NCBI RefSeq assembly: GCF_014672835.1
Contig: NZ_CP060244.1
Span: 695,001-759,000 of the forward strand
DNA from: Entomobacter blattae
Lineage (GTDB): Bacteria > Pseudomonadota > Alphaproteobacteria > Acetobacterales > Acetobacteraceae
DNA length: 64,000 bases
Direction of reading: 5' to 3'
Positions 36,059 through 40,169 of the stretch are shown one piece after another. Position 1 is the first letter of the stretch, and each line of letters begins with the position of its first letter. The notes beneath the pieces were generated by a model that made no database searches, was not told the DNA's origin, and was given only the letters and a program-made list of their open reading frames with translations. A program made the translations under genes and the position numbers.

Positions 36059-37633
36059 ATGCCTGTGTCTGGAAAGTTTTTCGTTTCTGGTTTTTTAGGC
36101 TGGAAAAAAGAAAGGGCAGAAAAGACAGCTGCTGTTTTTACGGCCCCTTTCGGCAGAAACATCCGGATTGGGAACAGGCATGTTACTAAAATTGTGTGTA
36201 TGGCTGGTCTGTCCTTGCTCATGGCCTGCTCTTCAGATCCTGATGAAAAGAAAGGCTCGGAAGCCAAAACATTATATGGCCAAAATGTTTCTTTTCTTGA
36301 TGGGTTTGTCGGGAGCGTTGCGGCAGATGAACCAACAGCAGCCCTTGTAGGGCGTGAGGTGCTTGTCCGCGGTGGTAATGCAGTTGATGCAGCAACCGCT
36401 ATCGGTCTTGCCCTTTCTGTCACTTTGCCCTCACGGGCTTCATTGGGGGCTGGGGGGGCTTGTCTTGTCTCTCATCCAGGGGAGGAAGAACAGGATACAG
36501 CTTTTGAGTTCCTGCCGGTTTCTGGGGAAAATAGAGTACTCGATAATGGTCGGGCCGTTGATAGGCCAGCAGCGGTGCCAATGTTGGCCAGGGGCCTGTA
36601 TTTAATGCAGCTTAAATATGGCAGTGTTAGTTTTGGCCAGGTTGTTTTACCCGCCTATCGTCTTGCCAAACAAGGGATTACCGTGACAAGAGCCCTTTCA
36701 GAGGATATTTCCTATGTCAAGGAAGCTTTGTTAAGCGATGAGTGGGTGCGGAAAGTTTTTTTACGGCCCAATGGTCAGGTTTTACAAGTGGGGGATAGTT
36801 TGGTTCAACCCCATCTTGCCGCTGTCTTACAGCTCATTAGCGCTGCCGGTGTGGGAGATATGTATAATGGGGCCCTTTCAAAGATTATCGTCGATGGTGC
36901 TCAGGCAGCTGGCGGGGGCCTCACACCAGATGATATGCGCAATGCCTTGCCAGTACAGGTTGCTGCATTAACGCTGAGTCCATCGGAAGAGACAACCCTT
37001 TCTTTCTTACCTCCCCCAGCTGATGGGGGGCTGGGTATGGCTTTGGCTTTCCGGGCGATAGAAGCAGGCCAGCATAATGGACTTGCTGTATCGGAAGGCA
37101 GTGTTGCCGCATGGCGCAAAGCCCATTCTGGACAAGAAAAAGAAAATTCAAGAACCCTTCAGGAGGAGGCACAGAATATTATTTCTTCTGGTCGGGCCGC
37201 TACGGGGCGCTTGCCTAATCTGCCTGCCTCCACTTCTTATGTGGTGGTCGATCGGTCCGGGCAGGCTGTTTCCTGTGCTTTGACAATGAATAACCTCTTT
37301 GGGACCGGCCGCATGGCGGGTACAACAGGCATTGTTCTGGCTGCTTCTCCCGCTCGTAAGCCTATTCCACTCCTGGTGGGGGCGGTGGCCAAGCGGCAAG
37401 GGCGTTTCCATGCTGTGATTGGTGCTTCTGGCCAAAATGAGGCTGCTTATGCCGGGGCATTGGCCTTACAGTCTGCCCTAGCTGGCCAGCATTTTTCTTC
37501 TACCTCCCTTTCAGAAGGGCGAATTAATGCAGTCAGCTGTTCAGAAGGCTTGCCAGGAGGGGAGGAAAGCTGCCGGGCTGTGACCGATGAAAAAGGCTTT
37601 GGAATGGGAACCGTGACTGGACCGAGCCATTAA
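36059..37633 (+). CDS. Gamma-glutamyltransferase-family lipoprotein, atypical active site
   Basis: A 524-residue protein of the N-terminal nucleophile gamma-glutamyltranspeptidase family. The lipobox LLMAC near residue 57 predicts an outer-membrane or periplasmic lipoprotein. RGGNAVDAATAIGLAL near residue 104 and GAGGACLV near 130 fit the large subunit. The nucleophile region reads PASTSYVVVDRSGQAVSCALTMNN, where typical GGTs have TTHYSVVD. The expected catalytic Thr is thus Ser391, although Thr392 is adjacent. The FREMAP substrate-binding arginine segment appears as FEFLPV, so the glutamate-binding Arg is lost. Function is uncertain. The ATG at 36059 touches the AAGGGAG, so the GTG at 36065 may be the true start. 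Confidence 0.8.
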   Translation: MPVSGKFFVSGFLGWKKERAEKTAAVFTAPFGRNIRIGNRHVTKIVCMAGLSLLMACSSDPDEKKGSEAKTLYGQNVSFLDGFVGSVAADEPTAALVGREVLVRGGNAVDAATAIGLALSVTLPSRASLGAGGACLVSHPGEEEQDTAFEFLPVSGENRVLDNGRAVDRPAAVPMLARGLYLMQLKYGSVSFGQVVLPAYRLAKQGITVTRALSEDISYVKEALLSDEWVRKVFLRPNGQVLQVGDSLVQPHLAAVLQLISAAGVGDMYNGALSKIIVDGAQAAGGGLTPDDMRNALPVQVAALTLSPSEETTLSFLPPPADGGLGMALAFRAIEAGQHNGLAVSEGSVAAWRKAHSGQEKENSRTLQEEAQNIISSGRAATGRLPNLPASTSYVVVDRSGQAVSCALTMNNLFGTGRMAGTTGIVLAASPARKPIPLLVGAVAKRQGRFHAVIGASGQNEAAYAGALALQSALAGQHFSSTSLSEGRINAVSCSEGLPGGEESCRAVTDEKGFGMGTVTGPSH

Positions 37634-37660: not shown

Positions 37661-37697
37661 CAATAACCATATTCCATGAAATAGAATATGGTTATTG
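37661..37697. repeat. Perfect 14-base inverted repeat between the GGT-like and catalase genes
   Basis: CAATAACCATATTC (37661-37674) pairs with GAATATGGTTATTG (37684-37697) across a nine-base loop. It lies about 25 bases after the GGT-like stop. No T-run follows on either strand, so it could be a weak terminator or an operator for the catalase gene, which starts 160 bases downstream. It is not an OxyR or PerR site by eye. Confidence 0.6.
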
Positions 37698-37854: not shown

Positions 37855-39399
37855 ATGAAAACAGTTTATAAAACGACTCTGGCTGTTCTGCTTTCGTCGG
37901 TTTTCAGCTTTTCGGTTGCGTCGGCACAACCCCATCAGCTGACTGAGGGGAACGGCCGGCCTATTGGTAATAATATGAGCTCTAAAACCGCGGGAGTTGA
38001 TGGCCCAGTCTTGCTAGAGGATTTTTCATTAATTGAGAAATTGGCTCATTTTGATCGGGAGCGTATTCCGGAACGTGTGGTTCATGCCCGTGGTGTAGGG
38101 GTATTTGGGGAATATGTTGAGACGGAAGATTTTTCAAACATTTCTAAAGCAGTTTTGTTTGAAGCCGGCAAGAAAACCCCAGTTTTTGTAAGGTTTTCGA
38201 CCGTTATGAATTTTCGGGGTTCGCCAGAGGCTGCTCGTGATCCCCGCGGGTTCGCTGTTAAGTTTTATACCGAACAGGGGAACTGGGATTTAACGGGGCT
38301 AAGTCTGCCAGTGTTCTTTATTCGCGATGCTGTTAAATTTCCAGACTTTGTACACGCGAATAAGCCCGATCCTGTTACCAATATCCAGGATCCTAACAAT
38401 GCGTTTGATTTCTTTTCAAACATGCCGGAATCAACCCATATCCTAACGTATTTATATACGGACTATAAGGGGATGCCTGTGAGCTATCGTAAAATGGATG
38501 GTCATGGTGTGCATGCTTTCCGTTTGGTGAATGCAAAAGGGGAAACCCATTTTGTAAAATTCCACTGGAAAAGCTTGCAGGGGATTGAAGGGATGAACCT
38601 AGATGAGACCATGAAAGCCAATACCAGTTATGCCACTCACGACCTTTATGAGGTTATTGGCAAGCAACATAAAGCTGCCAAATGGGATCTCTATGTTCAG
38701 GTTCTCACCCCAGAACAAGCTGCAAAATTACCTTATGATGCGTTTGATGATACAAAAGAATGGCTAGGGGTGCCGGAACGTAAAATTGGTACCATGACCC
38801 TTAACCGTATGCCGGATAACTTTTTTGAAACCACTGAGCAAGCTGCCTTTGACCCAGGAATTATGATTCCCGGTATTGAGCCCTCCCCAGATAAAATGCT
38901 GCAAGGGCGCCTGTTTTCCTATGGGGATACTCAGCGTTATCGTATAGGGGCCAATTTCCTCATGCTTCCTGTTAACCGTCCGCGGGTTGAAGTACATTTC
39001 AACCAGCAAGATGGTCACATGAATTTTGGAAACCGCAAAGGCCATGTGAACTATCAGCCTACAAGCCGTCTGGATGACCCTGGTGCAACGGTGGATAATC
39101 CTAAATTTGAGGAAAGCGCTTACGAGGTTTCCGGCCAAGCAAAAAAACAAGTGATTAAACCCCGCGATGATTATAGTCAGGCCGGTCAGGTTTGGGTTTC
39201 CTTGAGTGATCACGAGAAAGAGGCTCTCATTCGTAACCTTTCCTATGATTTGAATGGTGTGACTATTGAGCCCATAAAAATAAAAATGGTGAGCCATTTT
39301 TATAAGGCGAATGTGGACTATGGTACACGTTTAGCTAAAGCAACCCATTTGGATGTTGCCCAGGTTAAACAGGTTGCAGATAAACTCCCTAATAACTAA
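37855..39399 (+). CDS. katA: Exported monofunctional catalase with altered distal-pocket residue
   Basis: Heme catalase of the small-subunit class. The signal peptide (KTTLAVLLSSVFSFSVASA) directs it to the periplasm. The distal histidine is His77 in RIPERVVHARG, and the proximal heme tyrosine lies in RLFSYGDTQRYRIG. The usual distal asparagine (bovine Asn148, in DLVGNNTP) is replaced: the sequence reads GNWDLTGLSLPVFFIRD, so position 149 is leucine. That is unexpected, and activity should be tested. I start at the ATG at 37855 (MKTVYKTT) with GAGAGG upstream. Length (514) and the following ankyrin gene match the periplasmic KatB-AnkB arrangement of Pseudomonas. Confidence 0.93.
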   Translation: MKTVYKTTLAVLLSSVFSFSVASAQPHQLTEGNGRPIGNNMSSKTAGVDGPVLLEDFSLIEKLAHFDRERIPERVVHARGVGVFGEYVETEDFSNISKAVLFEAGKKTPVFVRFSTVMNFRGSPEAARDPRGFAVKFYTEQGNWDLTGLSLPVFFIRDAVKFPDFVHANKPDPVTNIQDPNNAFDFFSNMPESTHILTYLYTDYKGMPVSYRKMDGHGVHAFRLVNAKGETHFVKFHWKSLQGIEGMNLDETMKANTSYATHDLYEVIGKQHKAAKWDLYVQVLTPEQAAKLPYDAFDDTKEWLGVPERKIGTMTLNRMPDNFFETTEQAAFDPGIMIPGIEPSPDKMLQGRLFSYGDTQRYRIGANFLMLPVNRPRVEVHFNQQDGHMNFGNRKGHVNYQPTSRLDDPGATVDNPKFEESAYEVSGQAKKQVIKPRDDYSQAGQVWVSLSDHEKEALIRNLSYDLNGVTIEPIKIKMVSHFYKANVDYGTRLAKATHLDVAQVKQVADKLPNN

Positions 39400-39413
39400 T
39401 TGCGGTCTACTAA

Positions 39414-39446
39414 GCCCATCGTACATTTTGTGTATGATGGGCTTAT
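39414..39446 (+). terminator. Possible terminator or attenuator between katA and the ankyrin gene
   Basis: A 12-base stem of GCCCATCGTACA (39414-39425) with TGTATGATGGGC (39431-39442), one G-U or mismatch, is followed by TTATTGTC. It lies 15 bases after the catalase stop and 40 bases before the ankyrin gene, so it may uncouple the two or stabilise the katA message. Confidence 0.65.
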
Positions 39447-39485: not shown

Positions 39486-40169
39486 ATGTTTGTGACCTAT
39501 CGTAAAAAAACATGGTCTTTTGTTCGGTCTCTTTCTGTGCTTTCTGCCATGGTGGTCAGTGTTTCCTTACAGGCTGCGCAGGCGGCAGAAAAGGCTACCA
39601 CTCCCCAGAATACAGCTTCTCAGAATACAACTTCTCAGAATACAGGGGAACAAGAACCTTCGCGTATTGGGGTAGACCGCATGAAGGCGCTGTATTTTGA
39701 AGCCGCCAGGGAAGGCCGTAACGATGTTTTGGAAAGTTTCTTAAAAGCAGGGCTTTCAACTGAGGTAAAAGATATAAAAGGCTATACCCCTTTAATTTTG
39801 GCTGCTTATAATGAGCACCCGTCTACAGTAGAGTTTTTGCTAAAAAATGGGGCTCAGCCTTGCGCAGAAGACAAAGCAGGCAATACCGCTCTTATGGGGG
39901 TGGCTTTTAAAGGAAATGTCGAGATATTAAAGCGGCTCATTAAAGCAGGCTGTTCAGTGAACCACCAGAATATGCAGGGAAAAACAGCTTTAATGATGTC
40001 TTCCCTATTTGGAAGAGAAGACGTTGTTAAGACCCTTCTGGCTTCCGGAGCGGACTGGCGCTTAAAAGACAATAAAGGCAACACAGCCCTTTCGCTCTCT
40101 CGCCAACAGGGCAATGATGCTGTGCAGAAAATGCTCGTTGAGGCGGAAAAAGCAAACCATCACCCTTAA
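39486..40169 (+). CDS. Exported ankyrin-repeat protein next to catalase (AnkB-like)
   Basis: A 227-residue protein with a signal peptide (SFVRSLSVLSAMVVSVSLQAAQA), a short linker with repeats of SQNT, and four to five ankyrin repeats from about residue 60 (GRNDVLESFLKAGLSTEVKD, YTPLILAAYNEHPSTVEFLLKNGAQP, GNTALMGVAFKGNVEILKRLIKAGCS, KTALMMSSLFGREDVVKTLLASGAD). The pairing catalase-ankyrin is seen in Pseudomonas aeruginosa (katB-ankB), where the ankyrin protein supports catalase activity, and Campylobacter Cj1386 is implicated in heme supply to catalase. A similar role here is inference from location and domain. AAGGAAAAAG lies before the ATG. Confidence 0.88.
   Translation: MFVTYRKKTWSFVRSLSVLSAMVVSVSLQAAQAAEKATTPQNTASQNTTSQNTGEQEPSRIGVDRMKALYFEAAREGRNDVLESFLKAGLSTEVKDIKGYTPLILAAYNEHPSTVEFLLKNGAQPCAEDKAGNTALMGVAFKGNVEILKRLIKAGCSVNHQNMQGKTALMMSSLFGREDVVKTLLASGADWRLKDNKGNTALSLSRQQGNDAVQKMLVEAEKANHHP

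Follow-up and report, generated by a model that had tools for sequence, protein, structure and literature searches.

In Pseudomonas aeruginosa, katB and ankB form a small operon, and the absence of AnkB lowers both KatB activity and H2O2 resistance (Howell et al. 2000, as related in the available text of PMC2830190). In Burkholderia cenocepacia J2315, the catalase gene BCAM0931 also adjoins ankB. It is preceded by a putative OxyR box and was upregulated 5.7-fold in H2O2-treated biofilms, according to the same part of that report (PMC2830190). In the accessible sections of a review, the distal Asn is named as one of the residues that catalases conserve in their active site (PMC9687031). No natural catalase without this residue was found in the literature searched, which lay mostly outside subscription journals. 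In this study, a heme catalase of Entomobacter blattae was found to carry Leu at this position, and its relatives were compared to see how the substitution is distributed and what accompanies it.

Leucine at the catalytic asparagine position of a KatB-type catalase

The DNA analyzed here, referred to as the window, is a 64,000-nucleotide stretch of the E. blattae genome. Its catalase gene (P0001; 37855..39399, + strand) begins with ATG at 37855 and continues through 514 codons without a stop or shift. The product, a KatB-type protein of 514 aa, contains both the core and the C-terminal domain of monofunctional heme catalases (PF00199, E 6.3e-157 over residues 30-404; PF06628, E 2.8e-18 over residues 435-496). 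It matched 96 distinct PDB sequences at E <= 0.001, and the 60 listed are catalases. The segment 37855..37926 (+ strand) encodes MKTVYKTTLAVLLSSVFSFSVASA, judged by eye to be a probable Sec signal peptide; because of this signal-like N-terminus, the window catalase is probably periplasmic. The genome's second catalase has the usual GNNTP motif, and a profile search of this genome for KatG-type proteins (PF00141) gave no match. A gamma-glutamyltransferase-like frame (36059-37633) with a lipoprotein-like signal near its start precedes the catalase gene; it matches PF01019 and scores 156 bits, well under the NCBIfam cut-off of 358 bits. An inverted repeat (37661-37697; CAATAACCATATTC, 9 bases, GAATATGGTTATTG) lies between the two genes. 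A phage search gave 15 records, and the five matches listed all had less than 60% identity.

An earlier note on this DNA had proposed aligning the protein to clade 3 catalases. In the usual labeling of catalases, human catalase belongs to clade 3. The scores lean against this placement for the window protein: in the phmmer search of PDB, 4qol (531.9 bits) and Pseudomonas syringae CatF (1m7s; 530.5 bits) scored higher than bovine catalase (1tgu; 409.6 bits), and CatF was also first by fold (Foldseek, 49% identity in the match), which confirmed the catalase fold. BCAM0931 is called a clade 1 catalase in the available text of PMC7377471.

The motif GNWDLTGLSLP was read in the frame translation at 38278..38310 (+ strand), where the catalase frame encodes GNWDLTGLSLPVFFIRD from 38278 onward. 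The ungapped opposites of this segment in the PDB relatives are GNYDLVGNNLPIFFIRD (4qol), GNWDLVGNNFPTFFIRD (1m7s), GNWDFVGNNLPVFFIRD (2j2m) and GNWDLVGNNLKIFFIRD (4cab). All four relatives have Asn in the column of Leu149 (CTA, 38299..38301, + strand), which is the column of the bovine catalytic Asn148. The earlier note's claim that Leu has taken the place of the catalytic Asn in this motif is therefore confirmed. It had also named an alignment placing a different Asn in the pocket as the finding that would speak against it; none of the four ungapped alignments puts one at this column. A misalignment hiding another Asn is ruled out on the same grounds, the second Asn of GNN being Ser in the window catalase. 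A pseudogene or frameshift is ruled out by the open 514-codon frame and by homologues with the same change. Since the seven nearest homologues in the window's bacterial family all have Ile at this column (7/7), the loss of Asn in the window catalase is not random noise.

Distribution and repeated origin of the Asn-less catalases

Relatives of the window catalase were collected from contigs (the best 80 of 592 related stretches kept), from 299 genomes of the same family, from a phylum sample of 398 genomes and a class sample of 385 genomes (the best 30 loci each), and from plasmids (9 of 569 matching records opened). After duplicates with identical last 450 residues were merged, the 201 hits were reduced to 179 distinct catalases, in which the residue at the Asn148 column is Asn in 158, Ile in 19 and Leu in 2. 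The Asn-less proteins all fall inside the KatB-type group, defined as the 66 sequences scoring >470 bits to the window protein; 21 of these 66 lack Asn and 45 keep it, a proportion that reflects the choice of sequences for their likeness to the window protein and is not a natural frequency. Among the KatB-type loci of the phylum sample (>660 bits, among the best 30), 3/19 are Asn-less, one of them being the window, which was always included. Among those of the class sample (>770 bits, among the best 30), 5/6 are Asn-less, with the window and genome G065 included again. For catalases at large, a wide sample was taken from the same phylum sample as the 150 best-scoring matches listed, with the KatB type among the lower-scoring ones outside it; Asn was found in 147/147 (three read by motif search, all GNN). 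The remaining three of the 150 genes, namely the second catalase of the window's genome and two genes of genome G552, are also GNN.

Eight of the Asn-less sequences, the window catalase and the seven homologues mentioned above, belong to the window's family and carry GINFP, GINLP, GIDFP or GLSLP. Three others come from the same class (GINEP), and nine come from Burkholderia, Trinickia, Caballeronia, Paraburkholderia, one Pseudomonas and G552 (GINLP, GINWP, GINFP or GLNKG). The last is from Cobetia crustatorum (GINFP). The separate subfamily suggested by the earlier note is thus supported by a set of 21 distinct, probably secreted Asn-less sequences in the KatB group, in which other residues change with Asn. 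The earlier note had also proposed looking for conservation of GLSLP: among the sequences listed, these letters occur only in the window, and the other Asn-less catalases have GINxP, GIDFP or GLNKG. The only other Leu-type protein found (GLNKG, with the usual Pro lost too) is the second of two annotated catalases in tandem on a plasmid of Paraburkholderia sp. FT54 (L196, 2502-6452). Three Asn-type KatB relatives (L176, L116 and L118) carry His or Gln as the second residue of GNN (GNHTP, SNHPP, GNQTP).

A maximum-likelihood tree of 73 rows was built with the motif columns left out. The window gene (row L002) lies inside the 66-row KatB group with a branch support of 97/98. The Asn-less state needs three changes on this tree, and the same number was obtained when all active-site columns were left out. 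A single origin for all 21 Asn-less sequences was rejected by the AU test (p = 0.006, a value weakened by the set having been named after the tree was viewed). A clade joining the alphaproteobacterial and Burkholderia-type Asn-less sets was compatible with the data (AU p 0.207), so that the number of origins is given as at least two and not three. The KatB-AnkB group therefore saw two or more separate losses of Asn, and Cobetia is one origin, represented by a single sequence; the change counts are also compatible with a regain of Asn. The replacement of Asn by Ile takes one base from either Asn codon, and the Ile codons observed in the Asn-less genes are ATC or ATT.

Downstream of the window catalase gene, in the same orientation and across a gap of 86 bases, lies a gene for an AnkB-like ankyrin-repeat protein with a signal-like N-terminus (39486..40169, + strand; PF12796, E 5.8e-56). 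An AnkB-like gene was found downstream of 19/21 Asn-less and 39/45 Asn-type KatB-group catalases, indicating that an ankyrin neighbor is a trait of the KatB group as such and is not tied to the missing Asn. Among the Asn-less genes, only those of G028 and G115 (L184 and L185) have no such neighbor, even in 7-kb stretches. A hairpin of 16 pairs with a 3-base loop and a weak T tail (39411..39445, + strand) lies between the catalase and ankyrin genes of the window and may attenuate the latter. Three terminator-like sites were found around this region against a shuffle mean of 3.3, which is no enrichment. In Acinetobacter sp. 10FS3-1 (L118), a katB-ankyrin pair is carried by a 13 kb mobilizable plasmid together with a second catalase, and a BrnT/BrnA pair lies beside them.

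Conserved active-site residues and co-changing gate positions

Apart from the distal Asn, the catalytic residues examined are intact throughout the group. His77 (38083..38085, the bovine catalytic His75), Ser115 (38197..38199, bovine Ser114), and both Arg352 and Tyr356 (38908..38922, bovine Arg354 and the proximal ligand Tyr358), all encoded on the + strand, are kept in 66/66 KatB-group sequences. The same holds for Arg113, Val117, Arg128, Asp129, Phe154, Phe155, Phe162 and Arg363, the bovine equivalents including Val116 and Phe153/154/161. An exception on the proximal side is position 220 (bovine His218), which is Asn in 1/66 (L152). The pocket geometry of the window catalase is unreadable in the one AlphaFold model obtained (mean pLDDT 77.5), since the model is too weak there, with values <50 at residues 71-78 and 120-126.

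With a probability of roughly 0.62, we consider the window protein to be a KatB-type, probably periplasmic heme catalase encoded beside an AnkB-like gene and still acting as a peroxide scavenger, with a lower turnover. The distal amide, the partner of His75 at the peroxide-binding site, has been replaced by an aliphatic side chain, Ile in most Asn-less members and Leu in the window catalase. In the proposed mechanism, His77 (His75) and Ser115 would carry out the acid-base step leading to Compound I, and Tyr356 and Arg352 would hold and tune the heme. Peroxide would be positioned less well, and for this reason a lower catalatic turnover and a longer-lived Compound I are proposed. Such a low-rate scavenger fits the engineered Asn148 variants of human catalase, in which the rate was altered and the chemistry remained the same, as far as the available part of the report describes them (Gao et al. 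2008).

Two stretches near the motif change with the loss of Asn: Met118-Asn119-Phe120-Arg121 (38206..38217, + strand), in which 118 is the position of a gate-valve partner, and Phe165 to Asn169 (38347..38361, + strand). Column 118 is Ile or Val in 45/45 Asn-type but in only 1/21 Asn-less sequences, the change being to Met or Leu. At column 165, Met is replaced by Phe or Leu in 20/21 Asn-less versus 2/45 Asn-type sequences, and at column 169, Leu or Phe is replaced by Asn or Gln in 18/21 versus 0/45. The gate valve described for Neurospora CAT-1 consists of Phe170/Phe171 and lies above the His92/Asn165 site; the distances from it to Val133 and Leu134 were tracked (PMC9687031, in the sections available). 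When CAT-1 is mapped by counting back from Asn165, Leu134 falls at column 118 and Val133 at the invariant column 117; thus, the gate partner changes together with the amide. The co-variation of these columns is a description only, because the co-change test had three independent pairs and was unable to reach 0.05; shared descent of the two large Asn-less sets could explain most of it. The altered gate residues are probably an accommodation to the lost amide or a compensation for it.

Column 119 (bovine position 118) raises another explanation, namely that a different side chain such as Asn119 supplies the amide and leaves the chemistry unchanged. His occupies this column in 43/45 Asn-type and 0/21 Asn-less sequences, whereas Asn is found in 12 of the latter. 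The change may even have come first in the Cobetia line, since both Cobetia and its Asn-type sister Abyssibacter (L017) have Asn119; of columns 118, 119, 165 and 169, only 119 has changed in Cobetia. However, eight of the 21 have Gly here and one has Lys; a substitute amide from Asn119 would therefore not be available to the whole Asn-less set, and we regard the explanation as quite improbable. His119 is also not generally required alongside Asn, because the wide sample, with Asn throughout, has Gly at this column in 145/146 aligned rows.

The changes in the gate and channel, found at column 118 in 20/21 Asn-less and 0 of 45 Asn-type sequences and in similar excess at 165 and 169, may also be taken to mean that the Asn-less proteins are now peroxidases or peroxygenases; a peroxygenase-like activity had been raised by the earlier note. 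According to this explanation, a more hydrophobic pocket and the changed gate would favor organic hydroperoxides, or donors would be oxidized by a long-lived periplasmic Compound I. Four genomes of the window's family (G000, G100, G060 and G069) retain an ordinary Asn catalase as well, which counts in favor of such a role. Against this, the fold, length and C-terminal domain of the window protein are those of a full catalase, and its downstream ankyrin gene is shared with most of the Asn-type KatB proteins. On balance, we hold a shift to peroxygenase chemistry to be unlikely.

Selection, possible function and comparison with known catalases

Nine pairs of Asn-less genes were compared: six with usable dS gave dN/dS values of about 0.07-0.13, one (dS 3.2) gave 0.05, and two were saturated. 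Two of three Asn-type pairs gave about 0.03, and the third was saturated. The low values indicate purifying selection on the Asn-less catalases; some relaxation is possible, as they lie above those of the two Asn-type pairs. The latter difference, the lost catalytic residue and the ordinary catalase elsewhere in the window's genome could all be expected of a decaying or non-enzymatic catalase that serves as a heme store, a sensor or a scaffold bound by AnkB. Nevertheless, dN/dS is still about 0.1, and twelve other active-site residues are kept in every KatB-group sequence. In G065, moreover, the search for PF00199 matched the Ile-type gene alone, and that for PF00141 matched nothing. In G135, it is the ordinary catalase (C1:1905117-1906261) that is split into two overlapping frames, possibly as a pseudogene or through a sequencing error, while the Ile-type gene is open. 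Decay or a non-enzymatic role is thus highly improbable, and a slow but working scavenger remains the preferred reading.

Some clues to function come from B. cenocepacia. In another strain of this species (L114), an ankyrin gene comes after that of an Ile-type catalase, and BCAM0931 is presumably the same gene. The putative OxyR box and the H2O2 induction of BCAM0931 speak for a peroxide-scavenging role. Mutants in the KatG-type KatB of B. cenocepacia showed no effervescence and left approximately 90% of the H2O2, in the part of the report available (PMC2830190), and this KatB is described as the major determinant of catalase activity in the species in the accessible text of PMC7377471. Such a phenotype would fit BCAM0931 as a poor catalase, and equally as a protein with another job or with low expression; the little bulk H2O2 removal left without KatB is also what a peroxygenase would lead one to expect. 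A broader proposal, possible but doubtful, is that bacteria have repeatedly built a second periplasmic heme catalase by replacing the amide with Ile or Leu and rebuilding the gate (His119 lost, Met or Leu at 118, Phe or Leu at 165, Asn at 169). Its long-lived Compound I would then act as a peroxidase or peroxygenase, or the enzyme would be a catalase able to work without any distal amide.

Having lost Asn at least twice while keeping the other examined residues under continuing selection, the natural Asn-less set offers ready-made test proteins for what the amide contributes to making Compound I and to the second step, in which oxygen is released. It also shows which neighboring residues tend to move with the amide.

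The coral enzymes cAOS and cHPL resemble the window protein in their catalase-like core, distal His and proximal Tyr, as far as the available text of PMC5617202 describes them. Unlike it, they keep the distal catalase residues including Asn: N137 is present in cAOS, and cHPL is stated to retain the defined catalytic residues (PMC5617202). Each is fused to a lipoxygenase and has a fatty-acid hydroperoxide as its substrate, and cAOS is stated there to be unable to scavenge H2O2; a domain search of the window catalase gave no lipoxygenase match. Since the coral enzymes left catalase chemistry with their catalytic residues kept, the loss of Asn alone is no pointer to a fatty-acid peroxygenase. Human catalase, a clade 3 enzyme, has been altered at the same position, and the resulting proteins differ from the window catalase in being laboratory point mutants and not natural. 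These Asn148 variants share with it the state of a heme catalase without the distal Asn (Gao et al. 2008, in the part available). CatF is the top match of the window protein by fold and, with 4qol, by sequence, but differs from it at two columns, with Asn opposite Leu149 and His opposite Asn119. The KatB-AnkB system of P. aeruginosa, as described above, resembles the window in pairing a catalase gene with one for an ankyrin-repeat protein. Most of the KatB-group sequences compared (45/66) keep Asn, whereas the window catalase carries Leu.
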